DNA from: Phycisphaerae bacterium
Lineage (GTDB): Bacteria > Planctomycetota > Phycisphaerae > Tepidisphaerales > Tepidisphaeraceae
NCBI GenBank assembly: GCA_025924315.1
Contig: JAICIO010000005.1
Coordinates: forward strand, 62,001-126,000
DNA: 64,000 bases
Reading direction: 5' to 3'
Shown here: piece after piece, positions 17,257-34,550 of the stretch
Layout: every line of letters starts with the position of its first letter
Numbering within the stretch: the first letter of the stretch is position 1
Made by a program: the position numbers and the translations under genes
The notes under the pieces: generated by a model
Databases searched by the model: none
Told to the model about the DNA's origin: nothing
Seen by the model: only the letters and a program-made list of their open reading frames with translations

Positions 17257-17583
17257 CCAAAGCGCGCAACGGCTGAAAATAGAAAAATCCACCAATTCAA
17301 AAAATAAAGTTGAGGCCTGCTCACGATTTACGATTTCACCGTTGCGCAAAAGCGACTGAATTCGCGCAACACCGCCAGAGGATACGGGGGATGCTGCGCA
17401 CCGTGACCTCGTCGTGCGGCGCGCATCATGGCGCATCAGGGCGCAACATAAAAAAATGTGCGCCGTTCGGAAGGAGCGTGCAGACAAGTGGTTATGGATT
17501 CGAGAAGTCTCGCATGTTGCGCGCCCCATCGCCGAGCATGCGGCTGTTCAAACCATGATCGATTCCCTACCATCGTCCGCCTC
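17257..17583. other. Non-coding spacer upstream of the rhamnosidase
   Basis: No convincing gene. It contains an inverted pair GTTGCGC (17341-17347) / GCGCAAC (17364-17370) and the three tandem 10-mers listed separately. In-frame codons run up to the rhamnosidase from 17458, but that peptide (Cys/Arg-rich) looks non-coding. Confidence 0.5.
17421..17450. repeat. Three tandem 10-bp repeats upstream of rhamnosidase
   Basis: GCGCATCATG, GCGCATCAGG and GCGCAACATA follow one another without gaps, one helical turn apart. This spacing is what a cooperatively binding regulator could use. Whether it is an operator is speculative. Confidence 0.4.
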
Positions 17584-20500
17584 GTGCCATCATCCATTTT
17601 CTCTATCGTTTTTCTTACGCTCGCCATGCAGATCAGCGCCCAAATGAAGCCGATCAATCTCACCTGCGAATACCTGACAAACCCGATCGGCCTCGACACA
17701 CCGAAGCCGCGCTTGAGCTGGATGCTCGAATCCAATCGCCGCGGGGAAGTGCAGACCGCCTATCAAATCCTCGCGACGAGCGACGGCAACCCGCTCTGGG
17801 ACAGCGGCAAGGTCGCGTCGAACCAGTCGACGCAGATCGAATACGGCGGCAAGCCGCTCAGGTCAGGCCAGCGTGTCACATGGAACGTCCGCGTCTGGGA
17901 TCGCGACGGAAAGACGACCGAGAGCCAGCCCGCTTCCTGGGAAATGGCGCTGCTCGAACCATCCGATTGGAAAGCGAAATGGATCGGCGGCGAACGCGAT
18001 CCCCTACGCACGATGACGCTCGACGGCGCGAAGTGGATCTGGACGAACGAGCCCGGCGTCGATGCGACGAAAGACGCGCCGCAAGGCGAGCGTTTCTTTC
18101 GCCGAACGATCGACATCCCGACGGGAAAGATCACCAGCGCCCGCATGCGCGTCGGCGTCGATAACCACGCGACGATTTCCCTCAACGGCAAAGAAATCGG
18201 TCGTCGCGAGAACTCCTGGTGGCAGGCCGAGACGCTCGACCTGCTTCCGGCGCTGCGGCCCGGTAAAAACTCGATCGACATCACCGCGACGAACGACGAC
18301 AAAGGCCCCGCGGGCCTGATCGCGCGGATCGAGATCGTTCCTGAATCCGGCGAGAAGCTCGTCATCACGACCGACGACCATTGGCAGGCGGGCACGAGCG
18401 CGCAGCAGATCGACAAGAGCGCGAAGGTGATCGCGGATCTCCACGGCGGGCCGTGGGGACAGATCAAGACTTCTCCGCCAGGCGAACCCGCGCCGCTGTT
18501 GCGCAAGTCGTTCAATCTCAAATCGAACGTGAAGCGCGCCCGCGCGTATGTCTGCGGGCTCGGATACTACGAGCTGTTCCTCAACGGCAGCAAAGTCGGC
18601 GATCACATGCTCGATCCCGGCTACACCAATTACGACAAGCGCACGCTCTATGTCACCTACGACGTGACGAAGCAGCTTAAGAGCGGCGAGAATGCGATCG
18701 GCGCGATTCTCGGCAGCGGCTGGTACGACTGTCACACCCCCGCGGAGTGGCACTTCGATCGCGCGCCATGGCGCGGGATCCCAAAACTCCTCGCGCAGCT
18801 CGAAGTCGAATACGACGACGGCAGCCGTGAAGTCATCGCGACGGACAATTCGTGGAAGCGCTCGACCGGCGCGATCACCTACGACAGCATCTACGGCGGC
18901 GAGAACTACGACGCGCGGCTCGAGAAAAACGGCTGGGACACCGCCGGCTACGACGATTCGCAATGGCGGGCGGTCAATGTCATGGAAGCGCCGAAGGGGA
19001 TACTCGCCGCGCAGGAGATGCCGCCGATCCGCATCATGCAGACGATCAAGCCGGTGAAGTTGACCGAGCCGAAGCCCGGCGTGTTCGTCTTCGACCTGGG
19101 CCAGAACTTCGCGGGCGTGCCGGAGCTGAGCGTGAATGGCCCCGCCGGCACAACTGTGATTATGCGCTGTGGCGAGCGCCTGCATCCCGACGGCACTCTC
19201 GACGCCGACGACATCGGCACGTTTGTGAAACGCCACGGCACATGGCAGCAATTCCAGGAAGATCACTACACGCTCAAAGGCGGCGGAACGGAAACGTGGC
19301 ATCCGCGGTTTACATACCACGGGTTCCAGTACGTCGAGGTCACCGGTTTTCCGGGCCAGCCGACGCTCGACAATCTGCGCGGGCTCGTGATGCACACGGA
19401 CGTCCAGCCGGTCGGCAGTTTCGAGTGCTCGAACGATCTCCTAAACAAAATCGCGACGTGCGCGAAATGGTCGTACCTCAGCAATCTGATGAGCATCCCC
19501 ACCGACTGTCCGCATCGCGAAAAGAATGGCTGGACCGGCGACGCGCATCTCGCCTGCGAGCAAGCGCTCTACACCTTCAACAGCGCCTCCGTCTACAAGA
19601 AGTGGATCAACGACATGCAGGACGCGATGCACGACAACGGCGATCTCCCTGGCATCGTGCCGACCGGCGAATGGGGCTACACGCTCGGCCCCGCGTGGGA
19701 CAGCGCGCTGCTGCTCATCCCGACCTATCTGAACGAATACGACGGCGACACGCGCATCCTCACCTCGCATTATGCGGCGATGAAGAAGTACGTCGATTTC
19801 CTGTCGAGCCGCACGAACGATCACATCGTCCATGGCGCCCCGCTGGGCGATTGGGCGCCGTTTCACGACAAGACCAACACCGATTACGTCACGACCGCGT
19901 ATTACCTGCAGGATGCACAGATCGTTTCACGCATCGCGAAGATGCTTGGCAACGACGCCGATGCGAAGAAATACGCCGACCTGGCCGAGCAAATCTCGGC
20001 AGCGCTCAACAAGACCTTCTTCGATCCGAAGACGGGCAACTATGCCGAAGGGACGCAGACCGCTCAGGCCTGCGCACTCGTCTTCGGCTTTGCTCCGAAA
20101 TTAGAACGCGAGCACGTCTTTGACAATCTCGTAAAAGCCGTCGAAAAGCGGAACAAACATCTCGACACCGGCATTCTCGGCGCGAAGTGGGTCATGCAGG
20201 CGCTGCTCGATCACGGCCGGGCGGACATCGGCTACAAAATCGCGACGCAAACCGATCTGCCGAGTTGGGGCAACTGGATCAAGCAAGGCGCGACGACGCT
20301 GTGGGAAAACTGGGACGGCAGCGCCTCGCGGATTCACATCATGTACGGCGATGTCGTCGCGTGGTTTTATAAAGCGCTGGCCGGCATCCAGGCCGATCCC
20401 GCCTCGCCGGGGTTCGAACACTTCTTCCTTCGACCGAACGTCGTCGGCGATCTCACCGACGTCAAAGCGCATCACCAGACGATGCACGGCACGATTGCCG

Positions 20501-20721
20501 TTGAGTGGAAGCGCGACGGGGACAAACTGCGCCTCGAACTCGAAATTCCCGCAAACACTTCCGCGACGCTCACGTTGCCGACGACGGATCCGAAGTCGGT
20601 GACTGAAGGCGGCAAGTCCGTCGATCAGGTTGAAGGCGTGGAGGCGAAAGGGAGTACCGCAGGGCATCCGAATTTCGAGCTTCAGTCCGGCAGCTACAGT
20701 TTCGAATGCCGCTTAAAATGA
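17584..20721 (+). CDS. Secreted alpha-L-rhamnosidase, GH78
   Basis: About 1045 residues. The best signal peptide (SSIFSIVFLTLAMQISA) begins after GTG 17584; ATG 17494 or 17458 are alternatives, and none has a clear ribosome site. Domains in order: N-terminal Ig-like domain (LTCEYLTNPIGLDTPKPRLSW), rhamnosidase N-terminal beta-domain (VCGLGYYELFLNGSKVGDHM), the concanavalin-like domain, the alpha/alpha six-hairpin catalytic domain, and a C-terminal beta-sandwich. Catalytic-region signatures are TDCPHREKNGWTGDA near residue 640 (acidic general-acid/base region) and LWENWDG near 907 (second catalytic Glu). It would release terminal L-rhamnose from plant or microbial polysaccharides outside the cytoplasm. 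Confidence 0.93.
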   Translation: MPSSIFSIVFLTLAMQISAQMKPINLTCEYLTNPIGLDTPKPRLSWMLESNRRGEVQTAYQILATSDGNPLWDSGKVASNQSTQIEYGGKPLRSGQRVTWNVRVWDRDGKTTESQPASWEMALLEPSDWKAKWIGGERDPLRTMTLDGAKWIWTNEPGVDATKDAPQGERFFRRTIDIPTGKITSARMRVGVDNHATISLNGKEIGRRENSWWQAETLDLLPALRPGKNSIDITATNDDKGPAGLIARIEIVPESGEKLVITTDDHWQAGTSAQQIDKSAKVIADLHGGPWGQIKTSPPGEPAPLLRKSFNLKSNVKRARAYVCGLGYYELFLNGSKVGDHMLDPGYTNYDKRTLYVTYDVTKQLKSGENAIGAILGSGWYDCHTPAEWHFDRAPWRGIPKLLAQLEVEYDDGSREVIATDNSWKRSTGAITYDSIYGGENYDARLEKNGWDTAGYDDSQWRAVNVMEAPKGILAAQEMPPIRIMQTIKPVKLTEPKPGVFVFDLGQNFAGVPELSVNGPAGTTVIMRCGERLHPDGTLDADDIGTFVKRHGTWQQFQEDHYTLKGGGTETWHPRFTYHGFQYVEVTGFPGQPTLDNLRGLVMHTDVQPVGSFECSNDLLNKIATCAKWSYLSNLMSIPTDCPHREKNGWTGDAHLACEQALYTFNSASVYKKWINDMQDAMHDNGDLPGIVPTGEWGYTLGPAWDSALLLIPTYLNEYDGDTRILTSHYAAMKKYVDFLSSRTNDHIVHGAPLGDWAPFHDKTNTDYVTTAYYLQDAQIVSRIAKMLGNDADAKKYADLAEQISAALNKTFFDPKTGNYAEGTQTAQACALVFGFAPKLEREHVFDNLVKAVEKRNKHLDTGILGAKWVMQALLDHGRADIGYKIATQTDLPSWGNWIKQGATTLWENWDGSASRIHIMYGDVVAWFYKALAGIQADPASPGFEHFFLRPNVVGDLTDVKAHHQTMHGTIAVEWKRDGDKLRLELEIPANTSATLTLPTTDPKSVTEGGKSVDQVEGVEAKGSTAGHPNFELQSGSYSFECRLK

Positions 20722-21023
20722 AGAGTTTCGCGAGCCTTCGCGGCCGATAACTTCGTTACAACCCGCGCAGATTAACCCCGCTTATTGGCACCCGCCCCAA
20801 AAACAAGGGGTCTCGCCAAGCCCCGTCCTAAACACGTTGTATAGTCCACTCGATCAAAGGTTCTGACACCTGATTTCAGGCCGCCGCAGTGGGTTTCGTA
20901 CATATTTCGCGGCGTCTTCGAGGATTTGAACAACAGGCGTGTCTTCGCTCGCGTCCGCGTGCTGCGGGCTCGGTGCGCTCGTCTGACGTTGGGGCATCAC
21001 CCCGGGAAGTGGGCTGTAGGCGT
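20722..21023. other. Non-coding spacer upstream of exopolysaccharide cluster
   Basis: No gene recognised. A TATAGT hexamer at 20838-20843 could be a -10 box but has no good -35 at the right distance. The reading frame of the next gene runs back to 20889, but the added residues (Arg-rich) are unlike a protein start. A promoter for the polysaccharide genes is expected here but not resolved. Confidence 0.4.
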
Positions 21024-23687
21024 ATGTCCGTTGCAACGCTGTCATTTCAAGCGGTTGATCAGCCTGTCGTTCGCAAGCGCCGCCTCGGCCGCAGCGTCTG
21101 GGCCGGCGCCGACCAGATCCTCATCTCCGCGACCAACTTCGTCACGATGATGCTCGCCGGGCGCGCCCTCACCAAAGACGACTTCGGCGCGTTCACGCTG
21201 ATCTACTCCGCGTTGCTCTTCGCGAACATGATCCAGTCCGGTTTGGTGACGCAGCCCCATAATGTGCTGGGCACCTCGCGGCATGGTCGAAGCGACTACG
21301 CTCGCTACACCTCCGCGATCGGGGTCGGACAGCTTTACCTCGCGATCTTCGGCACGGTCATCAGCCTTTTGGTCTGGGTGATCGCGCTGATTGCCGGATG
21401 GGCAGCCGCGCCGCTTCTGCTGGCGCTGGCGGCGTCGATCTTCGCGTGGCAGATCCAAGAATTCTGCCGGCGCGTGCTCTACACCGAAGGCAAAGTCGAC
21501 GGCGCGTTCTGGAACGACATCATCAGCTACGGCGGTCAGACCGCGATCATCGCGCTGCTCTACTGGTACGGCCATCTCAGTGGCACGCTCGCGCTCTACG
21601 CCCTCGCCGTCACATCGATGCTCGCGGCGCTCGTTGGCGTGTGGCAACTGCGCCACAGCCTTACGTGGGATTTACTGCCCGGCGCGATGCGCGAGAACTG
21701 GACCTTCGGCAAATGGCTCGCCGGCGCAGAGCTGCTCGGATGGCTCACCTCCATCCACATGTACCTGTACATCGCCGCGCTGATCCTCGGGTTCGCCGCC
21801 GCGGGCGATCTTCGGGCGGCGCAGATTCTCTTCGGCCCGATGCGCGTGCTCTCGTTTGCGCTCGGCACGGTTCTGCCGATCTACTTCGCCAAGCAACTCG
21901 CCGGCGACATTCACAAGTCGATCAACAAAGAACTCTCGAAAGTCTTCGCCGTCGTAATCCCGGTCGCCGGCGGATACTGCATGCTGATGGCGCTCTTTGC
22001 GCTGCCGATCCTGCGCTTCGTCCTGCCCAAATACAGCAGTGACGCGTCGATCCTGATCCTCTACTCGATGTGCGCGTTCCTCAGCTACATGCAGATGGTG
22101 ATGTCGGCCGCGCTGACTGCAAAGCACAAGACCCGCGCCGTCTTCGTCGGCAATCTGATCGGCGGGGTGGTGGCGCTGACGATCAGCCTTCCGCTGATCA
22201 AGTTGGTCGGCCTGTCCGGCGCGGTGATGGCGATGATCACCGGCACGCTCATCCAAGTGCTCTACTCATTCGCGGTCTACGGAAAGCGCACGAGCGAAAC
22301 GCCTGCAACCGACGAGCACAACTCGCGCGAAGCCGATTCGCACGACGCGCCGCCGTCCGAAGCCGCAGGCCGATTGCTTAAGAACGTCTTCACCACGCTC
22401 GACGAAACGCAAACGCCCTTCTGCGTCATGCACGGCTACCAGGGTTATCCCGAAACCGTCAGCGGTGACGTCGATTGCATCATGCCGCGAAGCGTTTTGC
22501 CGAAACAACTCGCCAGCACGATTCACGAAAACCGCACGAAAGTCGGCGGCGAAATCGTCCAGTGGCTCAACGACGGCGCACAGCTCGTCGTCCTGCGGAC
22601 CAATGAAAGCGACGGCACGCCGGCGTTCCTGCAGATGCATGTCTCGTCCGACTACGAGATGAGCCCGCATCGCCGCTTCTATCGCGGGCAGCAGATTCTC
22701 GACGAGCGGAAACATCACGGCTCGTTCTGGATCCCAAAGGCTTCGACTGAATTTGGCTGCATCCTCGCCAATCGCATTTCAAAAGCGTCCTTCAAGGATC
22801 GGCATCTCCAGCAGCTCCAGGCGCTCTTCAAGCAAGACCCCGCCGGCTGCACGCAGGAGATCAGTCGCTTCTTCTCCGGTCCCAGCAGCTACGTGATTCG
22901 CAACGCCGCCGAGACGGGCAACTGGGTCGGCGTGATGGAGAACATCCGCTTCCTGCGCGATGAGTTGCTCCGCAGCTCCTTCAAGCAATCGCCCCTCGCG
23001 ACGGTTCGCCTCTTCGTCGGAAGCTGGACGCGCCGCGCGATGCGCTGGATCAAACCGCCGTGCGGGTTGCACGTCGTGTTCCTCGGTCCGGATGGCGTTG
23101 GGAAATCAACTGTGATCGACCTGGTGCGCGAGCGGCTTAAGGGCGCGTTCCTCCGCACCGACTACCATACGTTCGCGCCGTCGCTTCTTCCGCTGCACAT
23201 GCAGCAGAAGCCCTCGCCGCACGCGTTGCCGCCGCGCTCGTTCGCGGCGTCGATGCTCAAGGTCGGCTGGTGGTTCTGCTGCTATACCGTCGGTTATTTT
23301 GCGACGATTCACCCCGCCCGCGCGCGGTCGTCGCTCGTGCTCGGCCACCGCTACCTGCTCGACGCGATGGTCGACCCGAAGCGGTATCGCTATTCCGGTC
23401 CGATCTGGATGCTCAAGGCCATCTGGGCCGTCGCGCCTCGGCCGGATCTCGTCATCGCGCTCGATGCCGATCCACTCGTCATCTGGAATCGAAAGAAGGA
23501 AGTTTCGCTCGAAGAAACCACGCGGCAGCGCAATGGCTACGTGTCCCTCGTGCGCGAACTTGAGAACGGCTTGATCGTGGACTCATCACAGTCGATCGAC
23601 AAAACGGTGGCGGACGTCACCGAGGCAATCCTGGGGGTCATGAGGGCCCGCGCCGAGCAACAGCTCGGATTGGAGCGGCTGTCATGA
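21024..23687 (+). CDS. Flippase fused to nucleotidyltransferase-like and P-loop kinase domains
   Basis: An 887-residue multidomain protein. Residues about 20-425 are a 12-14-helix MATE/Wzx-type polysaccharide flippase (SVWAGADQILISATNFVTMM; later KYSSDASILILYSMCAF). After a Glu/Asp/His linker comes a soluble domain at about 445-650 with SGDVDCIMP near 480, similar to the GDxDxxV strand of nucleotidyltransferase-fold proteins. Residues about 680-887 are a thymidylate-kinase-like P-loop domain with Walker A GPDGVGKST near 686 and VIALDADPLVIWNRKKE. The flippase would move lipid-linked glycans across the inner membrane. The two cytoplasmic domains suggest coupled phosphorylation or nucleotide transfer. 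ATG 21024 starts just before the first helix. It overlaps the next gene by 4 bp. Confidence 0.87.
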   Translation: MSVATLSFQAVDQPVVRKRRLGRSVWAGADQILISATNFVTMMLAGRALTKDDFGAFTLIYSALLFANMIQSGLVTQPHNVLGTSRHGRSDYARYTSAIGVGQLYLAIFGTVISLLVWVIALIAGWAAAPLLLALAASIFAWQIQEFCRRVLYTEGKVDGAFWNDIISYGGQTAIIALLYWYGHLSGTLALYALAVTSMLAALVGVWQLRHSLTWDLLPGAMRENWTFGKWLAGAELLGWLTSIHMYLYIAALILGFAAAGDLRAAQILFGPMRVLSFALGTVLPIYFAKQLAGDIHKSINKELSKVFAVVIPVAGGYCMLMALFALPILRFVLPKYSSDASILILYSMCAFLSYMQMVMSAALTAKHKTRAVFVGNLIGGVVALTISLPLIKLVGLSGAVMAMITGTLIQVLYSFAVYGKRTSETPATDEHNSREADSHDAPPSEAAGRLLKNVFTTLDETQTPFCVMHGYQGYPETVSGDVDCIMPRSVLPKQLASTIHENRTKVGGEIVQWLNDGAQLVVLRTNESDGTPAFLQMHVSSDYEMSPHRRFYRGQQILDERKHHGSFWIPKASTEFGCILANRISKASFKDRHLQQLQALFKQDPAGCTQEISRFFSGPSSYVIRNAAETGNWVGVMENIRFLRDELLRSSFKQSPLATVRLFVGSWTRRAMRWIKPPCGLHVVFLGPDGVGKSTVIDLVRERLKGAFLRTDYHTFAPSLLPLHMQQKPSPHALPPRSFAASMLKVGWWFCCYTVGYFATIHPARARSSLVLGHRYLLDAMVDPKRYRYSGPIWMLKAIWAVAPRPDLVIALDADPLVIWNRKKEVSLEETTRQRNGYVSLVRELENGLIVDSSQSIDKTVADVTEAILGVMRARAEQQLGLERLS

Positions 23688-24976
23688 GCGTGCCCGCTCC
23701 GATGACGTGGACCGCGTTGTTGCCCGCAGACGCTCAGTTCATCGCTTCGCCGAACGTTCCCGAGTGGTTTGGAAAACTGCTCGCGCGAAAGACCGGCCAG
23801 CGACGGATCCCGGTCTACTCGTGCGAGAACATCGCGAGCGTGAAAGACGACGCGTTCGTCGCGATCAATTGTCGCGGCGGCGCGAAGCTCGATCCGCGCT
23901 ATCAATACGTGCGCCGCTTCGCCGTCCTTCCAAGCCTCGAGAACGCGCGCTGGTTCGTCCCGCTCGAATCGCCGGCGATCTCGACCGCGGCGTTTTCGCT
24001 CTATTCGCCCGCGAAGTTCAGCGCCCGATTGAAAGTCCGCGCGGCAAAGCTCATTGCCTACACGCGCATTCCCATCTGGTATCGCGACCAGATCCTCGTC
24101 GCCCAGACCGAGGCCCCGCCGCTTCAGCGGCAGGGAGAACTGCTCTTCCCGAACCACAAGATTCACCTTGCCCTCAGCGCCGGCGCGCCCGAACCCGCGC
24201 GAAACCGAAAGACCTCCGCCGCGATCCTATCCCAGCGCGGCGAAGTCCTCGGTTTCGCGAAAATAGCGGGCTCTCCACTTTCCGAGCGTCTCGTCCACCG
24301 CGAAGCAGCCCTCCTCGCGGAGCTCGAAAAGCTCCGCAGCCCCATCGCCCCGCGGATGGTTTTCGCGGGCGAGGTCGACGGCTCGTTTGTGCTCATCCAG
24401 GAAGTGCTGCCGGGCGAAGTCACGTCCGCGCGGTTCACCGATCTTCATCGCGAGCTGCTCGAAACGATGCAGCACGGGCGGCGTCAACACGCCAGCGATT
24501 GCGCGATGATCGTTCGGTTGCGCGAACAACTCCGCGCGCTGCCGGAACTTTGCGGGCGCCTCGAAGCGCTGCTGCCGATCCTCAGTGAAACGAGCGTTCC
24601 TTCAACCATCGTGCACGGCGATTTCGCGCCGTGGAACCTTCGCGAGCACGACGGCGCGCTCGCCGCATTTGACTGGGAATACGGCGAGCTCGACGGCCTT
24701 CCGCTCCTCGATGAGCTGCACTTCCATCTTCAGATCGGCCACGAGATGCAAGGCTGGTCGCCGCGATCGGCGAACGAATTCCTCAAGCATCACGCGCGGA
24801 CGAGACCGCTCGGCCTCTTGTCGCGGCAGACGAATGCGATCCAACAGGTCGCGATCATCGACCAGCTCGCGCGGCTTTACGGCGAAGGTTATGACCGCAG
24901 CAATTCAATGCTCGAGTGGTACGAAGATCTGCTCGGCCTGATGACCCAACACGCGAAAGAGGCGGCCCTCGCATGA
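23684..24976 (+). CDS. APH/choline-kinase-like phosphotransferase of the polysaccharide cluster
   Basis: A 430-residue protein. The C-terminal half is a protein-kinase-like fold of the aminoglycoside phosphotransferase type: an N-lobe lysine in VLGFAKIAGS, a helix with HREAALLAELEKL, a hinge (VLIQEVLPGE), Brenner's motif IVHGDFAPWNL near residue 308 and the metal-binding FDWEYGELDG. The first 190 residues form an extra domain I cannot assign. Its ATG overlaps the stop of the flippase-kinase gene (ATGA) and its own stop overlaps the next gene, so the three are translationally coupled. It probably phosphorylates a sugar or lipid carrier intermediate; antibiotic resistance is unlikely from context. 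Confidence 0.85.
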   Translation: MSVPAPMTWTALLPADAQFIASPNVPEWFGKLLARKTGQRRIPVYSCENIASVKDDAFVAINCRGGAKLDPRYQYVRRFAVLPSLENARWFVPLESPAISTAAFSLYSPAKFSARLKVRAAKLIAYTRIPIWYRDQILVAQTEAPPLQRQGELLFPNHKIHLALSAGAPEPARNRKTSAAILSQRGEVLGFAKIAGSPLSERLVHREAALLAELEKLRSPIAPRMVFAGEVDGSFVLIQEVLPGEVTSARFTDLHRELLETMQHGRRQHASDCAMIVRLREQLRALPELCGRLEALLPILSETSVPSTIVHGDFAPWNLREHDGALAAFDWEYGELDGLPLLDELHFHLQIGHEMQGWSPRSANEFLKHHARTRPLGLLSRQTNAIQQVAIIDQLARLYGEGYDRSNSMLEWYEDLLGLMTQHAKEAALA

Positions 24977-26211
24977 AAGCGGCGACATCCACCTTCATTC
25001 CGGGACTGAGTGCTCCGCAAGCGATCGCGCCGTCGCATTCCGCGGCGAAGTCCGCGCGCGTCGTCATCGCAACTGTCAACACGCCAAAAGGCGAAACCGG
25101 CGTGCACACGCATACCGACGCGCTGCACAGCGGACTTCTCGCGGCGGGAATCGATTGCTCGGTCGAAAGCCCTTTCTCTCGCGGGCCAATGTGGATTCCG
25201 GTCTTCGCGCTCAAGCGTCTCCTTGTCTCTCCGCTCAACAAAACCTGGGCGACGCGGTATTACCGCTTCTGGCATCTCGTCGCGCTCCGGCAAGTTCTCA
25301 CGCGCGAGCTGGCGCAGGAACCGGCCGACGTCGTCATCGCGCAATGTCCGCTCAGCGCCCGCGCCGCCCTCGACGCCCGCGACAAGCTGCGCGCCAGCTT
25401 CCGCGTCGCGATGGTGGTCCACTTTAATTACAGCGAAGCGACCGAATACCGCGATCGCGGGGAACTGAAAGACGAGAAAGCCTATCAAGGCGTGCTGGAC
25501 CTTGAGACGAACGCCGTGCAGCGCGTCGATCAGATGATCTATGTTTCCGGCTGGGCGAAGGACGTGATCGAGCGCGAGCGCTGCCTTCCGACGCGAAAGT
25601 CGGACGTGATCTGGAACGGCATCGCCAGCTCGGTGGATGTCGCGCCCGTGCGCCGCGCCACACTCGGGCTGAGCGGCGACGACATCGTGATGATCAGCGT
25701 CGGCACGCTCGAACCGCGAAAGAATCAGATCGCGATGCTCGATCTCTTCGCGAAAGTGGTTGGCGAATTTCCGAAGGCGAAGCTCGTACTGATCGGCGAC
25801 GGCACGCAGCGGGCTGAGATCGAACAGAAGATCGCGAAGCTCGGATTGCAGAACAACGTGCTGCTTCTCGGTCATCGTACAGATGTCGCGGCGTTGCTTC
25901 CGGTCGCGGATCTGTACATCCACTACGCGAAGAAAGAGAACTGCCCGGTCGCTCTCATCGAAGCCGCGCGGGCGGGCCTGCCCATCGCCGCCATCCCGAC
26001 CGGTGGGACGGGGGAATTGCTCGAACAGCTCGGGCCGACCGTCCGGCTTTCCGAAACGGACGTGAACGCGTCGCTGAACCTCCTGCGGCCGATTCTCTCG
26101 GACCCTGCGGTTCGTCGCGATGCAGGCACGAAGACGAAAGAGCGCTTTCAGCAGCGTTTTTCCCGCGAAGCGATGGTCGCGGCTTACGTCGAGGCTTTGG
26201 CGCTCCGATAA
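24973..26211 (+). CDS. Glycosyltransferase family 4
   Basis: A 412-residue GT-B glycosyltransferase. The N-terminal Rossmann domain contains THTDALHSGLLAAGI; the C-terminal one has the GT4 signature ISVGTLEPRKNQIAMLDLF, LVLIGDGTQRAEIEQK, NNVLLLGHRTDVAALLPVAD and the EX7E motif region ENCPVALIEAARAGLPIAA. It transfers a sugar from a nucleotide donor during exopolysaccharide repeat-unit synthesis in the cytoplasm. The ATG at 24973 overlaps the upstream stop codon, fixing the start. Confidence 0.93.
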   Translation: MKAATSTFIPGLSAPQAIAPSHSAAKSARVVIATVNTPKGETGVHTHTDALHSGLLAAGIDCSVESPFSRGPMWIPVFALKRLLVSPLNKTWATRYYRFWHLVALRQVLTRELAQEPADVVIAQCPLSARAALDARDKLRASFRVAMVVHFNYSEATEYRDRGELKDEKAYQGVLDLETNAVQRVDQMIYVSGWAKDVIERERCLPTRKSDVIWNGIASSVDVAPVRRATLGLSGDDIVMISVGTLEPRKNQIAMLDLFAKVVGEFPKAKLVLIGDGTQRAEIEQKIAKLGLQNNVLLLGHRTDVAALLPVADLYIHYAKKENCPVALIEAARAGLPIAAIPTGGTGELLEQLGPTVRLSETDVNASLNLLRPILSDPAVRRDAGTKTKERFQQRFSREAMVAAYVEALALR

Positions 26212-26217
26212 ATCACT

Positions 26218-27579
26218 ATGCGCGCCCACTCGCCCATGCAGATGCCCGCCTTGCCTCAGGTGAGCACGGCCGCGCGCCTCGACATCGATCTGCCGCGACG
26301 GTTTCTGATCTTCCTCGCGATCGTGCTCGCGGGATATGCGATCGACGGCCGCGGGTTCGCGTACCTCGGCGTTCCGCCCCTGTTTATCGGCGAGATCTCG
26401 CTGCTGCTGGGCGTGGTCACGTTTCTCTCGATCAACGGCTGGTGGCGCGTTCTCACGCTTCCGCAGGCGGTCGCGATTTATCCGCTCTTCATCTGCGGAC
26501 TGATTGCGACGATCCCGTACATTTCCGTCTACGGATTCGACACGTTTCGCGATGCCGTCACGTATGGTTATTCGATCTTCGCGTTCGTCATTGCCGCCGT
26601 GCTGATGTCCGAGCCCACGCGGCTGGTGAAACTCATCCAGTGGTATCGCAAGTTCTGGCGCGTCTTCCTGTGCGCGATTCCCTGCATCTACTTCATCACG
26701 CACTTTCTGCACGACGCCATTCCCAAATGGCCGTTCGCCGACCAGCACATCATCCAGCTGAAGGAAGGCGACGTGCTTGTGCACCTCGCGGGCATTATCT
26801 GTTTCTGGATCGCGGGCTATGAGAAGGATGCCAAGTGGCCGTGGGTCGCGCTCATGGCCGGATGCGTCGCGATCATGGGCGTGATTGACCGCGCAGGGCT
26901 GATTACGTTCCTCATTGTGCTCGGCCTGTGCATGGTCCTTCGGCCGAAGAGCATTCCGCCGTGGCGGCTTGGCACCATGATCGTCCTGTCGCTCTTTCTG
27001 CTCTGGGCGTCGGATCTGAAGATTCCGGTGCCCGGCGGAAAAGACCGGGAAGTTTCGTTCCAGCAGGTCGTGGACAACATCATGTCGATCACCGGCCAGA
27101 GCCACAAGGTCGGCCTGGAAGGCACGAAGGAGTGGCGGCTCGAGTGGTGGACAGACATCGTCAACTACACGATTCATGGGAAGTATTTCTGGAGCGGGAA
27201 AGGCTTCGGCGTGAACCTCGCCGACGACGATGGCTATCAGGTCGGCGACGGCACGCTGCGCAGCCCGCACAACGTGCACATGACGATTCTCGCGCGCACC
27301 GGCGTGCCGGGGATTCTCATCTGGGCGGCGCTGCATCTCTTCTACGGCTCGACGCTCCTGCTGAATTACCTCCGCGCGCGAATGGCCGGCGATGAGCGAT
27401 GGACGAAGTTCTTCATGTTCGTCTTCGCCTTCTGGCTCGCGTTCCTCATCAACGGCTCGTTCGACGTGTTCATCGAAGGACCGATGGGCGGAATCTGGTT
27501 CTGGACGATCGTCGGCACCGGCATGGCGTCGATTTGGATTTACAAGAATTACCCGGAAGCTCTGAATGAGTTGGAGTGA
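26218..27579 (+). CDS. O-antigen ligase / Wzy polymerase-like membrane protein
   Basis: A 453-residue integral-membrane protein with about 11 hydrophobic helices. The largest periplasmic loop (about residues 270-365) contains LEGTKEWRLEWWTDIV, YFWSGKGFGVNLAD and SPHNVHMTILARTGVPG. The R-W-R/H-N pattern followed by HN...ILARTG is typical of the Wzy_C/O-antigen ligase family. It would polymerise or ligate flipped glycan units on the outer face of the inner membrane. It starts 6 bp after the preceding glycosyltransferase. Confidence 0.88.
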   Translation: MRAHSPMQMPALPQVSTAARLDIDLPRRFLIFLAIVLAGYAIDGRGFAYLGVPPLFIGEISLLLGVVTFLSINGWWRVLTLPQAVAIYPLFICGLIATIPYISVYGFDTFRDAVTYGYSIFAFVIAAVLMSEPTRLVKLIQWYRKFWRVFLCAIPCIYFITHFLHDAIPKWPFADQHIIQLKEGDVLVHLAGIICFWIAGYEKDAKWPWVALMAGCVAIMGVIDRAGLITFLIVLGLCMVLRPKSIPPWRLGTMIVLSLFLLWASDLKIPVPGGKDREVSFQQVVDNIMSITGQSHKVGLEGTKEWRLEWWTDIVNYTIHGKYFWSGKGFGVNLADDDGYQVGDGTLRSPHNVHMTILARTGVPGILIWAALHLFYGSTLLLNYLRARMAGDERWTKFFMFVFAFWLAFLINGSFDVFIEGPMGGIWFWTIVGTGMASIWIYKNYPEALNELE

Positions 27580-27648: not shown

Positions 27649-28848
27649 ATGCGGATCATTGTCGCGCACAACTTCTATCAGCAGCCGGGCGGAGAGGACC
27701 AGGTCTTCGCCGCCGAGACTGAGCTGCTCGAATCGTACGGCCACAAGCCGGTGCGCTTCATCATGCACAACGACGAGATCGACGGCATGAGCCGGATCTC
27801 GCTGGCGGTGAAGACGACGTGGAATCGCGATAGCAAGGCAAAACTCGCCGACGTAATTCGCGAGGTGAAACCGGATGTCGTGCACTTTCACAACACGTTT
27901 CCGCTGATCTCGCCGGCCGCTTACGCCGCCGCGCGCGAAGGCGGCGCGGCCGTCGTGCAGACGTTGCACAACTTTCGTCTTTTGTGCCCCAACGCGGTCT
28001 TCTTCCGTGACGGCAAGGTGTGCGAAGACTGCCTGCACAAAAAGACCAAGCTGCCCGGCGTGATCAACCGGTGCTATCGCGGAAGTTTCGCCGCGAGCGC
28101 GATGTGCGCGACCTCGCTGACGATTCACAACCTCGCCGGCACGTGGCGAAACGCGGTAGACACGTACATCACGCCATCCGAATCCGCCAAGCGAAAGTTC
28201 GTGGAAGGCGGACTACCCGCGGATAAGATCGTCGTGAAGCCGCACTTCCTGCCGACGGATCCGGGTGTCGGTCCCGGCGATGGGGATTATACGGTGTTCG
28301 TCGGACGTCTGTCGTTCGAAAAAGGCGTCGAGACGCTGCTCGCCGCGTGGGACAAGCTCGCCGCGAACTGCCCGCTGAAGATCATCGGCGACGGTCCGCT
28401 CGCGCCGCAGGTGCAGTCCGCGCTGAAGGGCGACCCTCGGATCGAATGGCTCGGGCGTAAGTCGCTCAACGAGATCTACGAAATCGTCGGCCGCGCGAAG
28501 ATGCTGATCTTTCCGTCGCAGTGCTACGAAACCTTCGGTCGCGTCGCGATCGAAGCCTACGCGCGCGGCACGCCGGTCGTCGCGACGGATCACGGCGCGA
28601 TGGCGGACGTGGTGGATCAAGGCCGCACCGGATTGCGCTTCGCGCCCGGCAGCCCGCAGGATTTGGCCGATCGCGTGCAGCAGTTGCTCGATGAGCCGGA
28701 GCTGCTCGCGCAAATGCGCGTGCAGGCGCGACACGAGTTCGAAACGAAATACACGGCGCCGGCCAACTACGAGCGCCTGATGCGGATTTACGAGAACGCG
28801 ATCGCGCGGGCACATGGCTTAGAAGGAAATCTCGCGCTGTCATCCTGA
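27649..28848 (+). CDS. Glycosyltransferase family 4 (second)
   Basis: A 399-residue GT-B enzyme. The N-terminal domain has NFYQQPGGEDQVFAAETELL and a Cys-rich insert (LLCPNAVFFRDGKVCEDCLHK) seen in a subgroup of GT4 proteins of exopolysaccharide clusters. The C-terminal domain has FVGRLSFEKGVETLLAAW, LKIIGDGPLAPQ and the EX7E region CYETFGRVAIEAYARGTPVV. It probably adds a sugar to the lipid-linked intermediate. The final codons and the TGA stop lie inside a class A repeat, so the last residues LSS come from the repeat. Confidence 0.93.
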   Translation: MRIIVAHNFYQQPGGEDQVFAAETELLESYGHKPVRFIMHNDEIDGMSRISLAVKTTWNRDSKAKLADVIREVKPDVVHFHNTFPLISPAAYAAAREGGAAVVQTLHNFRLLCPNAVFFRDGKVCEDCLHKKTKLPGVINRCYRGSFAASAMCATSLTIHNLAGTWRNAVDTYITPSESAKRKFVEGGLPADKIVVKPHFLPTDPGVGPGDGDYTVFVGRLSFEKGVETLLAAWDKLAANCPLKIIGDGPLAPQVQSALKGDPRIEWLGRKSLNEIYEIVGRAKMLIFPSQCYETFGRVAIEAYARGTPVVATDHGAMADVVDQGRTGLRFAPGSPQDLADRVQQLLDEPELLAQMRVQARHEFETKYTAPANYERLMRIYENAIARAHGLEGNLALSS

Positions 28849-28929: not shown

Positions 28930-29703
28930 ATGGCAGCGACGAAGACGGCCATCTTCACCACCAGCTGGGACGACGGGAATCCGCTGGATTTCCGCATCGC
29001 GGAGATGCTCGCGCGCTACGGTCTGCGCGGCACGTTCTACATTCCGCGGCACATCGACAGTGGCGTGATGAGCGAAAACGAGATGGCGAAGCTCAGCGAG
29101 TCGTTCGAGATCGGCGCGCACACGCTCAATCATGTCTTTCTCACGACGACCGACGACACGAACGCGTCGATCGAGATCAAAGTCTCCAAGACCTGGGTGC
29201 AGGACGTGACGGGCAAGCCGTGCACGATGTTCTGCCCGCCGGCGGGGAAACACACGGCGCGGCATCTGCAATTCGCGCGCGATGCGGGATACCGCGGCGT
29301 GCGAACGGTCGAACTGATGTCGCTTGCCCGTCCTCGCTGCGTGAACGGCCTGTGCATCATGCCGACGACAATGCAGTCCCATCCGCACGGTGCCGCCACG
29401 TATCTTCGCAACGCGCTCAAGCGAACGAGCGTGAGCAACGCGTGGAATTACCTCACCCGCGGTTCCAGCGGCGATTGGACGAAGTCCGCCGAGTCGATGA
29501 TGCGCCGGGCGATCCAGGTCGGTGGCGTCTTTCACCTCTGGGGGCATTCGTGGGAGATCGAGCGCTTCGATCAGTGGAAAAACGTCGAGCACGTCCTGCG
29601 GCTGATGGGCGAGCTGAGCAGCGAGGCAACATCCCTCACGAACGGCGACGTCGTCGCACGTCACACCTCCGCTCGCAAGCGAGCGACCGCAAGCGTCGCG
29701 TAG
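28930..29703 (+). CDS. Polysaccharide deacetylase, NodB/CE4 family
   Basis: A 257-residue protein with the NodB homology domain. TSWDDGNPLDF near residue 11 holds the catalytic and metal-binding aspartates, and HTLNH near residue 64 is the H-x3-H metal site. CPPAGKHTARHL corresponds to motif 3 and HLWGHSWEIERF to the C-terminal His motif. No signal peptide is visible, so it may act in the cytoplasm or need another route. It most likely removes N-acetyl groups from the exopolysaccharide or its intermediate, as the last gene of the cluster. The ATG has weak upstream Shine-Dalgarno pairing; a repeat precedes it. Confidence 0.92.
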   Translation: MAATKTAIFTTSWDDGNPLDFRIAEMLARYGLRGTFYIPRHIDSGVMSENEMAKLSESFEIGAHTLNHVFLTTTDDTNASIEIKVSKTWVQDVTGKPCTMFCPPAGKHTARHLQFARDAGYRGVRTVELMSLARPRCVNGLCIMPTTMQSHPHGAATYLRNALKRTSVSNAWNYLTRGSSGDWTKSAESMMRRAIQVGGVFHLWGHSWEIERFDQWKNVEHVLRLMGELSSEATSLTNGDVVARHTSARKRATASVA

Positions 29704-29721: not shown

Positions 29722-31941
29722 TTAATGCGTTGTCGCGGTCAACGCGAAATCAAAACTGATATCGCTGCTGGTCACGTCGGCCTGATGAATTTCCACCGCG
29801 ATGACGTTTGTGCCTGTGACGAAAAGGCTCGGGCTGATCGTCGTCGAATAATACGACGTGTCTTCGATCGCGACGTTCGCTTCCGTGCGATAACCGATCG
29901 TGCCCGTCGGCATGTTCGTTCGGAAGACTTCCGTGCCGTTGAGATACACGACGGCCCCATCGTCCCGCAGGATGCGCAGCGCCGCCGCGGAGATCTGAGC
30001 GGCATCCGCTACCGTGAAGCTCTTTCGAAAATAGGTCGTGACGTACTTGTTGTTTGGATCGCCGCCGTAGCCGACGACCGTCGCTTCATCGCCGTCGCCG
30101 TAACCCAGTTGCGCGGCGCCGGATTTCCATGCGCTATCATTGAAGGTCGTCGCCCGCCACGTCGTGCCCTTGTTGGTGCCGTTGTCGAGATACTTCCAGG
30201 TCGCGCCCACGGGAATGTAAGTGATGCTGGTGCTCGTCGTGCCCGTCTGCGTTGTGGCGCTGGCGACGTTGGAATATGCGGAGTTGCCCGCGGAGTTGTA
30301 GGCGCGCACGCGGTAGTAGTACTTCGTGCTCGCACTCAGTCCGCTGTCGATGAACGACGTCACGTTGCCGAGCGACTGCGCGATTTCAGCGAAGTTCACG
30401 TTGTCGGTTGATCGCTCGATGCGATAGCCCGCTTCGTTCGTTGCATTATCGGTCCAGCTGATCTGGATCTGCGAAGAGGATGTCGCGGCGGCGTTGAGGT
30501 TCGTCGGGGCGGCGGGGGCGGTTGTCGTGGTCGTTCCGCTTTGCGCGCCAATGAGCGAGAGATCGAAGCTGATGTCGCTGCTGGTCGGATCCGCCTGATG
30601 CACTTCGACGGCGAGCACATTCGTCCCCGCCACCAGCAACGACGGACTGATACTCGCCGTGTAGTAGGTGTTGTCTTCGATCGCTTCACTCGCGAGTGTG
30701 CTCGACGTAATCGTGCCGGTGGGCATGTTGGTGCGGAAGACTTCCGTGCCGTTAAGGTATGCGACGGCTCCGTCGTCGCGCAGCAGGTTCAGCGTCAGCG
30801 CAGAAAGTGACGATGGATCGGACACGTCGAACGATTTGCGGAAATAGGTCGTGATAAACTTGTTGCTCGCGTCGCCGCCGTACCCGACGACCGTCGCTTC
30901 GTCGCCGTCGCCATAGCCGAGTTGCGCGGCGCCGGATTTCCACGTGCTGTCGTCGAAGGTCGTTGCCCGCCAGGCGGTGCCCTGATTGCTGCCGTTGTCG
31001 AGGTATTTGTAGGTTGCTCCGGTCGGGATGATCGTCGTGTTGTTCTGGTTTGATGCCTGCGCGTCGATCGTGTACGTGTCGATCAGTTCTCCGGTGCGCG
31101 TGATGAACTGGCACGTGAGCGCGGTGTCGGTGGCGTCGAGCTTCATCGCGCCATAATCGCCCACGTAGCGCACCTGGCTTCCGGTCACAACATCTGGAAA
31201 ATCGCGGATGCTCTCCCCGCCGAGGCCATCGACGAAGTACGGGAAATTGTTGCGCACGATCCGCTCATAATCATGATCGTGGCCATTGAACACGGCCGTC
31301 GCGCCCCACGCCTGGAAAGGCCATTCCATGTTCGGCGTGCTTCCCTGCTCGCCGGACGAATACGCGGGATGATGAAAGAACACGAGCTTGAACGTCGCGG
31401 TCGAATTCGCGAGCGCGCTCTTCAGCCATTGTGCCTGCACTGAAGTCGAAGTGTTGCCATCGGGCTCATGATCATCGCTGTCGATGATGAAGAGGCCCAC
31501 GTTGTTGATCTGCTTCGCGTAATAGCGCTCATTGCCGGGAAGCGTGAAGTAATCGGTGTAGGGCTGGTCGGTGCCCGTGTTCCAATCATGATTGCCGAGT
31601 GACGGCCAGAAATGATTTTGCCCGTCGGCCGGTCCGGCGCCGTAGGTTCCTTTGTACGGCGCGATGAAGGAGTGATACCACTGGCCGATGTTCTGATCGA
31701 TCGTGTCGGCGGCGCCGTCGGGATAGTTGTTGTCGCCCACGGTGACGACATCGCCGGGTGCCCAGCTCTTCACGAGCGCCGCGACGTCGCGCGTCGGCGC
31801 GGTCTGCACGTCGGATGAGAAGTCTCCGATCACCGCGATGCGCGTCGAGGCGAGGAGCATCCGAGGTTCGAGAAACTCGATGAGGTCCCGTGTGCGTAGG
31901 AAATGCCTGCACACGCCGTCCTGGCGATTCGGCACTTTCAT
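29722..31941 (-). CDS. Secreted TRAP-like metallophosphoesterase with FN3 and two beta modules (paralog 1)
   Basis: A 739-residue protein. The N-terminus carries a LEPRxLL-type export motif (IEFLEPRMLLAS). Residues about 33-290 are a metallophosphoesterase domain like tartrate-resistant acid phosphatase: VIGDFSS, VTVGDNNYPDG, LGNHDWN, FFHHPAYSS and NGHDHDYER give the two-metal site. Then come a module of about 150 residues (WRATTFDDSTWKSGAAQLGYG; LRDDGAVAYLNGTEVFRTNM; TNVLAVEVHQ), a fibronectin type III domain, and a second copy of the module. The module resembles a galactose-binding-type beta-sandwich. Extracellular phosphomonoester or polyphosphate cleavage is plausible. It is a tandem paralog of the next gene upstream. 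Confidence 0.88.
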   Translation of the reverse strand: MKVPNRQDGVCRHFLRTRDLIEFLEPRMLLASTRIAVIGDFSSDVQTAPTRDVAALVKSWAPGDVVTVGDNNYPDGAADTIDQNIGQWYHSFIAPYKGTYGAGPADGQNHFWPSLGNHDWNTGTDQPYTDYFTLPGNERYYAKQINNVGLFIIDSDDHEPDGNTSTSVQAQWLKSALANSTATFKLVFFHHPAYSSGEQGSTPNMEWPFQAWGATAVFNGHDHDYERIVRNNFPYFVDGLGGESIRDFPDVVTGSQVRYVGDYGAMKLDATDTALTCQFITRTGELIDTYTIDAQASNQNNTTIIPTGATYKYLDNGSNQGTAWRATTFDDSTWKSGAAQLGYGDGDEATVVGYGGDASNKFITTYFRKSFDVSDPSSLSALTLNLLRDDGAVAYLNGTEVFRTNMPTGTITSSTLASEAIEDNTYYTASISPSLLVAGTNVLAVEVHQADPTSSDISFDLSLIGAQSGTTTTTAPAAPTNLNAAATSSSQIQISWTDNATNEAGYRIERSTDNVNFAEIAQSLGNVTSFIDSGLSASTKYYYRVRAYNSAGNSAYSNVASATTQTGTTSTSITYIPVGATWKYLDNGTNKGTTWRATTFNDSAWKSGAAQLGYGDGDEATVVGYGGDPNNKYVTTYFRKSFTVADAAQISAAALRILRDDGAVVYLNGTEVFRTNMPTGTIGYRTEANVAIEDTSYYSTTISPSLFVTGTNVIAVEIHQADVTSSDISFDFALTATTH

Positions 31942-32177: not shown

Positions 32178-32200
32178 GGTCCGCTGAAGCGGACCCTACA
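32178..32200. repeat. Inverted repeat class B, single arm
   Basis: One arm only, GGTCCGCTGAAGCGGACC followed by CTACA, preceded by the class-B flank AATAACC. Read on the minus strand, TAG in GTAGGGT is the stop codon of the phosphoesterase gene ending at 32196. The remaining spacer 31942-32177 shows nothing else. Confidence 0.85.
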
Positions 32201-34550
32201 AAAGCACGCTCGCGATGATGGTGTCGTCGTTGAACAGATTCGACGGCGTTTGATCCGCCAGTGGTGCGGTTGTGGCGATCGTGCTGGTCGTGGAATGGAT
32301 GGATTGCGTCGTCGCGCTCTGCGACGCGGTAAGCTCGAAATCAAAGCTGATGTCGCTGCTGTAAGCATCCGATTGATGCACTTCAACCGCGATGACGTTG
32401 TTGCCGGCGACGAGCAGTGCGGGATTAACGCTCGCGGAGTGAAAGCTCGTGTCTTCCACCGCATCGACCGCGAGGGTGCTGTAATCGATCGTGCCGGCGG
32501 GCATATTGCTTCGGTAGATTTCGGTGCCGTTGAGATAAACGACCGCGCCGTCGTCGCGCAGGAGGGAAAGCGAAAGGGCTGTGATTTGCGACGGATTGGA
32601 AACCGTGAAGCTCTTGCGGAAATACGTCGTGATGTACTTCCACTTCGGATCGGGGCCGTAGCTGACGACGGTGGTTTCATCCCCGTCGCCGTAACCGAGC
32701 TGCGCGGGGCCGGATTTCCAGGTCGAATCGGAGAACGAAGCGGAATGCCATGCGGTGCTTTGGTCCGATCCGTCGTCCAGATATTTCCACACATCGCCGG
32801 TCGGGATAAGCACCGCGCCCGATGACGTCGAGCCACTCGTCGGCGTCGCGCTCGCGACATTAGAATAGCCGGAGTCGCCCGCGGCGTTGTACGCGCGCAC
32901 GCGATAATAGTACTTCACGCCGGCGCTCACGCCGCTGTCGAGATAGGACGTGACGTTGCCCAGCGATGGCGCGATCTCGACAAAATCGATGCCGTTCGTC
33001 GAGCGCTCGATCTTGTAACCGGTCTCATTGGTCGCGTTGTCGGTCCAGGTGAGCTGCACCGCCGAAGAAGAGACCGCGAGTGCATTGAGATTCGACGGCG
33101 CGGCCGGCAGCGTCGCCGTGGTCATCGTCGTCGTCACTGTCGCGCTGAGCGAGAAGTCGAAGCTTAGGTCGGGATCATCCGGCTTGGCCTGATGCACTTC
33201 GACCGCGATGACATTGTTGCCGGCGACGAGGAGCGAAGGATCGATGCTCGCCGTGTGGAAGCTGTTGTCTTCGACCGCCGTGCTGGCTCTTGTTGTGAAA
33301 CTGATGTTTCCGCCGGGCATATTGGTGCGATAGACCTCCGTGCCGTTGAGATAGACCACCGCTCCATCATCGCGCAGGAGGTTGAGCTCGAGGCTATCGA
33401 TCGCAGACGGATCCGCGATCGAAATGGTCTTGCGGAAGTACGTGGTGATGTATTTGTTCTTCGCTCTCGGCCCATAGCTCACCACGGTCGCTTCGTCACC
33501 ATCGCCGTAACCGAGCTGCGCATTTCCGCTCTGCCACGATGAATCGTTGAACGAGATCGCGCGCCAGGCGGTGCCCTGGTCGGCGCCGTCATCGAGGTAT
33601 TTCCATGCCGAGCCGGTGGGAATCAGCGTGCTGGTGGTCGTCGTGGTCGTCGTGCCGCCAGAACCTGCGCCCGAGCCTGAGCCACTGACTCCGCCTGATG
33701 GAGCGGCAATGGTGTAGGTATCGATCACCTGTCCCGTGCGCGTGATGAACTGCAGCGTGAGCGCCGTATCCGTCGCGTCGAGCTTCATCGCGCCGTAGTC
33801 GCCGGCGTAGCGCACCTGGCTGCCGGAGACCGTCGAGCCAAAACCGACGATGCTCTCTCCGCCGAGGCCATCGACGAAGTAGGGGAAGTTGTTCTTCAGG
33901 ATGCGTTCGTAGTCGTGATCGTGTCCGTTGAAGACCGCGGTCGCGCCCCACTGCTGGAACGGCCACTGCATGTACGTATTGCTTCCCATCCCACCCGACG
34001 AGTACGCCGGATGGTGGAAGAAAACGAGCTTGTACGTCGCGCTCGAATTCGCCAGCGCGCTCTTGAGCCATTGTCCCTGCACCGAGCTCGCACTCGTGCC
34101 GTCCGGTTCCTGCGATTCACTGTCGACGATGAAGAGGCCGACGTTGCCGACTTGCGTCGTGTAATAACGCTCGTTGCCGGGAAGCGTGAAATAGTCGGTG
34201 TAAGGTTTGTCTGTGCCGGTATTCCAGTCGTGGTTGCCGAGCGCCGGCCAGAAATGGTTCACTCCGTCGCTCGCGCCCGATCCGTACGAGCCGTGATACG
34301 GATAGATGTACTGGCCGTACCACTGGCCGATGTTGGCATCGATGGTGCTGGCGGCGCCATCGGGATAATTGTTGTCACCCACGGTCACGACCGCATCGGG
34401 CGACCAGCTCTTCACAAGGTTCGCCACGTCGCGCGTCGGCGCGGTTTGCTCGTCCGACGAGAAATCACCAATGACCGCCACGCGCGTCGCGGCCATCAGC
34501 ATTCGCGGTTCAAGAGAATCAACAATAAAAGCAGTCGTGAACTTCGGCAT
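32196..34550 (-). CDS. Secreted TRAP-like metallophosphoesterase with FN3 and two beta modules (paralog 2)
   Basis: A 784-residue protein with the same order as paralog 1: export motif DSLEPRMLMAA, phosphoesterase domain (VIGDFSSDEQ, VTVGDNNYPDG, LGNHDWN, FFHHPAYSSG, NGHDHDYERI), beta module, FN3, beta module. It has a Gly/Ser/Thr linker after the enzyme domain and a C-terminal tail of about 45 residues that paralog 1 lacks, ending IIASVLL. The tail is Ser/Thr-rich and may be a surface spacer. The active-site residues are the same in both paralogs, so both may be active. Its stop codon is part of a class B repeat. Confidence 0.88.
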   Translation of the reverse strand: MPKFTTAFIVDSLEPRMLMAATRVAVIGDFSSDEQTAPTRDVANLVKSWSPDAVVTVGDNNYPDGAASTIDANIGQWYGQYIYPYHGSYGSGASDGVNHFWPALGNHDWNTGTDKPYTDYFTLPGNERYYTTQVGNVGLFIVDSESQEPDGTSASSVQGQWLKSALANSSATYKLVFFHHPAYSSGGMGSNTYMQWPFQQWGATAVFNGHDHDYERILKNNFPYFVDGLGGESIVGFGSTVSGSQVRYAGDYGAMKLDATDTALTLQFITRTGQVIDTYTIAAPSGGVSGSGSGAGSGGTTTTTTTSTLIPTGSAWKYLDDGADQGTAWRAISFNDSSWQSGNAQLGYGDGDEATVVSYGPRAKNKYITTYFRKTISIADPSAIDSLELNLLRDDGAVVYLNGTEVYRTNMPGGNISFTTRASTAVEDNSFHTASIDPSLLVAGNNVIAVEVHQAKPDDPDLSFDFSLSATVTTTMTTATLPAAPSNLNALAVSSSAVQLTWTDNATNETGYKIERSTNGIDFVEIAPSLGNVTSYLDSGVSAGVKYYYRVRAYNAAGDSGYSNVASATPTSGSTSSGAVLIPTGDVWKYLDDGSDQSTAWHSASFSDSTWKSGPAQLGYGDGDETTVVSYGPDPKWKYITTYFRKSFTVSNPSQITALSLSLLRDDGAVVYLNGTEIYRSNMPAGTIDYSTLAVDAVEDTSFHSASVNPALLVAGNNVIAVEVHQSDAYSSDISFDFELTASQSATTQSIHSTTSTIATTAPLADQTPSNLFNDDTIIASVLL

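Follow-up and report, generated by a model that had tools for sequence, protein, structure and literature searches.

In Wzx/Wzy-dependent polysaccharide loci, a single operon encodes a flippase, GT4 enzymes and a Wzy-type polymerase, and the Wzx proteins known so far are, to our knowledge, stand-alone proteins. In the pneumococcal lic system, a kinase of the APH/choline kinase fold, a transferase of the polymerase β superfamily and a flippase act on a phospho-decorated repeat unit. Components of that system are the LicA kinase, LicC, LicD and the TacF flippase (PMC4364537). For a flippase that ends in a kinase-like domain, the closest precedent is mycobacterial MviN, a MurJ-type flippase whose C-terminal pseudokinase domain, of the protein kinase fold, does not bind ATP and brings in an inhibitor of cell-wall biosynthesis (PMC12599244).

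We analyzed a 64,000-nucleotide stretch of DNA (the window) from a member of the Tepidisphaeraceae, which holds a locus with the same flippase, polymerase and GT4 content in one operon. The window flippase differs from those of known Wzx/Wzy-dependent loci in being joined to two cytosolic enzyme domains; its locus further contains a kinase/nucleotidyltransferase module. Like MviN, the protein is a MOP-superfamily flippase, presumably for lipid-linked saccharides, with a C-terminal cytosolic kinase-like domain; unlike MviN, it has a P-loop NMP-kinase fold with an intact Walker A motif, a nucleotidyltransferase-like (NT) domain and a place in a polysaccharide locus. It does not show the hallmark of an MviN-type regulated flippase, a protein-kinase-fold pseudokinase that lacks the ATP-binding residues. 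The lic system represents a functional analogue that shares the APH-fold kinase (LicA), whereas the window locus has an NT resembling NTP_transf_5 rather than LicD, an extra enzyme of the thymidylate kinase (TMPK) fold, and fused genes. LicD is absent from the operon and its family (PF04991) from the whole genome, which rules out a Lic-type phosphocholine system; no operon protein had a Pfam match of the LicC cytidylyltransferase type. A defence system was likewise rejected, as PADLOC returned weak P-loop matches only. Our literature searches, which combined flippase, thymidylate kinase and nucleotidyltransferase, or exopolysaccharide, found no description of the module, in agreement with an earlier note on this DNA whose author knew of no described system of this composition. 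The locus table for Akkermansia cps1 lists no such protein by name (PMC13343947), and we found nothing tied to the module genes in the literature on Leisingera biofilm plasmids.

The earlier note had proposed a three-part fusion of flippase, NT-like and TMPK-like domains, and this was borne out. Positions 21024-23687 (+ strand) form a single uninterrupted frame free of frameshifts, from the ATG at 21024 to the TGA at 23687, encoding 887 residues; an upstream in-frame GTG at 20889 is an alternative start that would give 932. The frame comprises a Wzx-type flippase domain (21024..22283, residues 1-420), a hydrophilic linker (22284..22355, residues 421-444), a polymerase β-like NT domain (22356..23003, residues 445-660) and a P-loop kinase domain of the TMPK fold (23064..23648, residues 681-875). 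The same triple fusion, at 906 and 907 residues, was found in independent assemblies from another genus of Tepidisphaeraceae (G007 and G023), while near relatives such as G020 possess a separate flippase gene; both fused and unfused homologues thus exist in the planctomycetes, as the note had suggested looking for. Comparing G007 with G023, dN/dS was 0.13 for the flippase, 0.30 for the linker, 0.09 for the NT and 0.04 for the TMPK domain, and all domains of the fusion are under purifying selection. The recurrence of the fusion in two further genomes together with this selection rules out a frameshift or an error of sequencing or assembly.

The flippase part of the window protein has no Pfam match of its own. 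It is 45-47% identical to the stand-alone flippase of a sister genome (L012), and among 17 aligned relatives 5 match PF13440 (Polysacc_synt_3) and 4 match PF01943 (Polysacc_synt). Family-averaged hydropathy, a simple measure applied in place of a dedicated predictor, gave approximately 12 transmembrane segments against the 12-14 expected for Wzx, such that both termini should be cytosolic. Flipping of a lipid-PP-saccharide would fit the gene context, in which Wzy and glycosyltransferases are encoded alongside.

We assigned the kinase domain to the TMPK fold from both profiles and structure. Pfam Thymidylate_kin (PF02223) matched the full protein at E=1.1e-5 and 25.6 bits, slightly below the 27-bit cut-off, and the NT-TMPK part searched alone at 28.5 bits. 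An AlphaFold model of NT-TMPK, built from an alignment of 42 sequences, had a mean pLDDT of 92, and its residues 245-441 superposed on thymidylate kinases with a Z of 19.9 (2.6 Å over 177 residues). The domain shares with thymidylate kinase the fold, the Walker A motif and the arginine and glutamate of the Lid; the motifs HxRP, PHxxPP, DYxLGY and RYR, conserved on the substrate side, are in contrast this family's own. The match to the curated dTMP-kinase equivalog TIGR00041 reached only 26 bits against a cut-off of 83. A canonical tmk is present elsewhere in the window genome (G000:C1), so the domain is not the cell's thymidylate kinase and 'thymidylate-kinase-like' describes its fold only. 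Given the distinct substrate-side motifs and this normal enzyme, thymidylate is not a likely substrate.

The active site of the kinase is largely retained across 46 sequences. Within Walker A (GPDGVGKST, residues 688-696, 23085..23111), D690, G691, G693 and K694 are invariant, and in the Lid region (RKxE...E...Q, residues 823-835, 23490..23528) R823, K824 and E826 occur in 45/46. The counterpart of the TMPK DR(Y/F/H) motif reads HRY in the window (residues 775-777, 23346..23354), which departs from the canonical form: R776 and Y777 are invariant and D780 is conserved as well, while the first position is Asp in 40/46 sequences and His in 6/46, all six from the planctomycete clade to which the window belongs. 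Since the P-loop core, R776, Y777, D780 and Lid residues are kept, the fused kinase appears not to be catalytically dead. The complete P-loop kinase read in the earlier note is hence intact in Walker A and Lid but not fully canonical, and degeneracy of the kinase in all homologues, which that note held would refute it, was not observed. In one genome (G003, L017:3748-5743), the TMPK domain is interrupted by a frame change and runs on in frame into another type of kinase-like segment (YGDFTLSNIL...LVDPG), and the NT domain was not found; the module at this locus is possibly decaying or being replaced.

Identification of the NT domain rests on its motif and on weak profile matches. NTP_transf_5 (PF14907), whose members likewise combine a DxD pair with a further Asp located on a later strand, was the sole Pfam family matched by more than one NT member (7/41, best 2.7e-4), and the window domain itself fell below significance for it. 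A structure search with the NT-TMPK model listed only thymidylate kinases, the kinase domain having filled the list. Sequence conservation and the predicted structure were also used in delineating the NT domain. The GDVDC motif on which the note had based the NT fold contains the metal-binding pair D482 and D484 (DVD, 22467..22475), which are Asp in 44/46 and 46/46 sequences, respectively. The third carboxylate, Asp in 42/46 sequences, is not preserved: its position is occupied by H539 (22638..22640) in the window and by His in L012, L013 and L022, these four lying in the same planctomycete clade. With His at this position as well as in place of the DRY Asp, NT activity in the window clade may be lost or altered. 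At two clostridial loci (L060:8869-9720 and L065:8612-9550), a second, stand-alone NT gene directly follows NT-TMPK.

Directly downstream of the fusion lies an APH-fold kinase gene (23684..24976, + strand; PF01636, E=1.6e-7) whose start codon at 23684 overlaps the fusion stop as ATGA, upholding the translational coupling to an APH-like kinase noted earlier. Its model (pLDDT 93) has the choline kinase/APH fold (Z ~15), with an extra N-terminal α/β domain of ~140 residues (window 23684-24110). Its catalytic residues are intact (HGDFAPWN and DWE), and the H, D, N, D and E of HxDxxxxN and DxE/D are invariant. These observations bear on the view that NT, TMPK and APH act as a regulatory gate, sensing nucleotides or modifying the flippase by phosphorylation or nucleotidylylation and so switching flipping, much as the pseudokinase tail of MviN does. 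MviN shows that a flippase can carry a kinase-like domain at its C terminus (PMC12599244), and His occurs at two acidic active-site positions in the very clade that contains the flippase fusions. We nevertheless consider such a gate unlikely, because residues of the P-loop, the Lid and the APH site are strictly conserved, unlike those of a pseudokinase, because dN/dS falls as low as 0.04, and because NT-TMPK/APH modules lacking a fused flippase are far commoner than those that have one.

The remainder of the operon, all on the + strand, encodes a GT4 glycosyltransferase (24916..26211, PF00534), a polymerase of the Wzy/O-antigen ligase type (26218..27579, PF04932), a second GT4 glycosyltransferase of the GGED type (27649..28848, PF00534) and, as the last gene of the conserved operon, a polysaccharide deacetylase (28930..29703, PF01522); the gene order is the same in relatives. 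The GGED-type enzyme is a frequent companion of the module, its GT4b profile matching 41/52 module loci, many at >200 bits. A gene for a GH78-type α-L-rhamnosidase is situated directly upstream of the glycan operon (window 17458-20721); taken with the dTDP-glucose dehydratase-like cluster of other module loci described below, this means that the glycan may contain rhamnose. Elsewhere in the window, one frame (44783-46771) joins a glucosamine-6-phosphate isomerase domain to a PIG-L deacetylase domain, and two adjoining similar large proteins with repeats, apparently phosphoesterase-like, are encoded on the minus strand (29722-31941 and 32196-34550), likely as a tandem duplication.

Across 84,980 species genomes scanned, 50 loci with relatives were detected, spread over Planctomycetota, Cyanobacteria/Melainabacteria, Nitrospirota, Nitrospinota, Acidobacteriota, Thermomicrobiota, Pseudomonadota, Thermodesulfobacteriota, Myxococcota, Rhodothermota, Bacteroidota, Bacillota, Verrucomicrobiota, Omnitrophota, WOR-3 and one archaeal MAG; the source genomes are mostly MAGs, so individual entries may reflect contamination. 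Among the 34 loci flanked by 5 kb or more on each side, a GT4 gene was nearby in 30 and an APH gene in 26, leaving about a quarter in which APH was undetected. These APH counts rely on a profile trained partly on the same loci, and its scores are not independent; the first-pass version was made from six planctomycete sequences only. Across all loci, APH and NT-TMPK mostly overlap or touch. In a control set of 29 genomes, APH matches >250 bits occurred in 8/10 genomes with NT-TMPK compared to 0/19 without (Fisher p ~1e-5). Such strong matches were always on the NT-TMPK contig and solely beside NT-TMPK, and the 16 other flippase loci of these genomes had none. Related plasmid loci in Leisingera and Agrobacterium carry NT-TMPK, annotated as 'hypothetical protein', near phosphotransferase and glycosyltransferase genes; in the Leisingera locus the module genes are unfused. 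Clustering of 668 neighboring ORFs yielded only generic polysaccharide genes, among them a dTDP-glucose dehydratase-like cluster in 17/53 loci, and a common extra partner gene was accordingly rejected. The conserved unit is thus NT-TMPK plus APH, present in polysaccharide loci of more than 10 phyla, rather than the flippase fusion on which the earlier note had centered; that fusion is real but is a lineage-specific variant. The interpretation offered in the note is supported in part.

Members of this unit are joined in differing combinations. In addition to flippase-NT-TMPK (window, G007 and G023), we found NT-TMPK-APH fusions in G019 and G119 and a TMPK-APH fusion in L048; conversely, NT and TMPK are encoded apart in L061, G613 and G648, and on different contigs in G430. 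This Rosetta-stone pattern of recurrent joining suggests a single working complex of flippase, NT-TMPK and APH. It also bears on the alternative that the enzymes synthesize a donor: APH would phosphorylate a free sugar or alcohol, NT and TMPK would convert it to an activated nucleotide donor for a glycosyltransferase of the locus, and fusion to the flippase would merely anchor the pathway at the membrane. A kinase and a nucleotidyltransferase form a classical activation pair, as in FKP, HldE and AmgK/MurU. Consistent with donor synthesis, solved structures among the profile relatives of APH include the choline kinase LicA, and one GT4 subfamily accompanies the module. The fusion partners are, however, flippase and APH, the sole frame uniting the module with a glycosyltransferase being APH-GT4 in L025; the usual pyrophosphorylase is of the GT-A type rather than a polymerase β-type NT; and the third NT carboxylate is missing in the window clade. 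On balance, donor synthesis appears somewhat unlikely.

We also considered how the fusion arose. In G020, flippase, NT-TMPK and APH are three genes, the first two overlapping as ATGA with an AAGGAG inside the flippase 3' end. In G007 and G023, the joining is in frame and the linker retains an AAGGAG followed by an ATG (L014:9743-9756, and L015 ~11230-11245 on the minus strand), so that one gene may yield both the fusion and free NT-TMPK; shuffled sequences contained 0.81 sites of this type per 20 kb, counting both strands. The window linker, by comparison, lacks an internal ATG or Shine-Dalgarno sequence, and a pattern scan of it found no AGGAG-N4-12-ATG; lacking an internal start, the window fusion would be obligate unless the protein is cleaved. 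In a protein tree with well-supported branches, the window grouped with G020 and G019, apart from G007 and G023, and the triple fusion requires at least two changes; either two fusions or a single fusion that was later split would fit. Screening by frame length found no further triple fusion among 397 genomes of the class and 392 of the phylum, leaving three known cases, all in Tepidisphaeraceae. Overlapping genes such as those of G020 might simply have merged when a stop codon was lost, without functional coupling beyond co-expression, and the AAGGAG-ATG kept in G007 and G023 for a free NT-TMPK agrees with this. Even so, we regard an incidental fusion as quite improbable: the same neighbors are joined differently across lineages, the window frame has no internal start, and purifying selection extends along the whole chain.

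The best explanation, which we put forward tentatively, is that the repeat unit is phospho-modified while lipid-linked, immediately before flipping. The flippase part, in its Wzx/Wzy-type locus, would carry the lipid-linked repeat unit outward, and the NT and TMPK domains with the coupled APH kinase would form a three-enzyme module acting at the cytosolic face to modify that unit, most likely with a phosphate or phosphate-linked group, such that modification and flipping take place within one complex. Action on a lipid-linked glycan, phosphate in the product and modification ahead of flipping are all three inferred. Besides the pattern of fusions, this explanation draws support from the linkage of APH to NT-TMPK across loci and in the control genomes, the conserved TMPK and APH sites, the GT4-Wzy-GT4-deacetylase operon and the cytosolic placement of the domains predicted by transmembrane segment count. 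Counting against it are the replacement by His of two acidic residues (the DRY Asp and the third NT carboxylate), the absence of PF04991 from the genome, and the loci in which APH was undetected. A bolder and doubtful extension is that NT, the TMPK-like enzyme and APH constitute a new, widespread complex at the mouth of the flippase that adds a phosphate-linked modification and lets only modified units be flipped, the Tepidisphaeraceae fusion being its covalent form.

The wider NT-TMPK and APH module is of greater interest than the fusion itself. It links three enzymes of the kinds that abound in polysaccharide loci under the names 'hypothetical protein', 'phosphotransferase' or 'thymidylate kinase' into one conserved module beside the flippase, carried on plasmids of marine biofilm Leisingera and by relatives of Akkermansia, by clostridia and by members of many further phyla. 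The natural fusion offers a ready construct for testing how assembly is coupled to flipping. Should the module modify or license repeat units prior to export, it would account for that coupling, and phosphate would be expected in many surface glycans.
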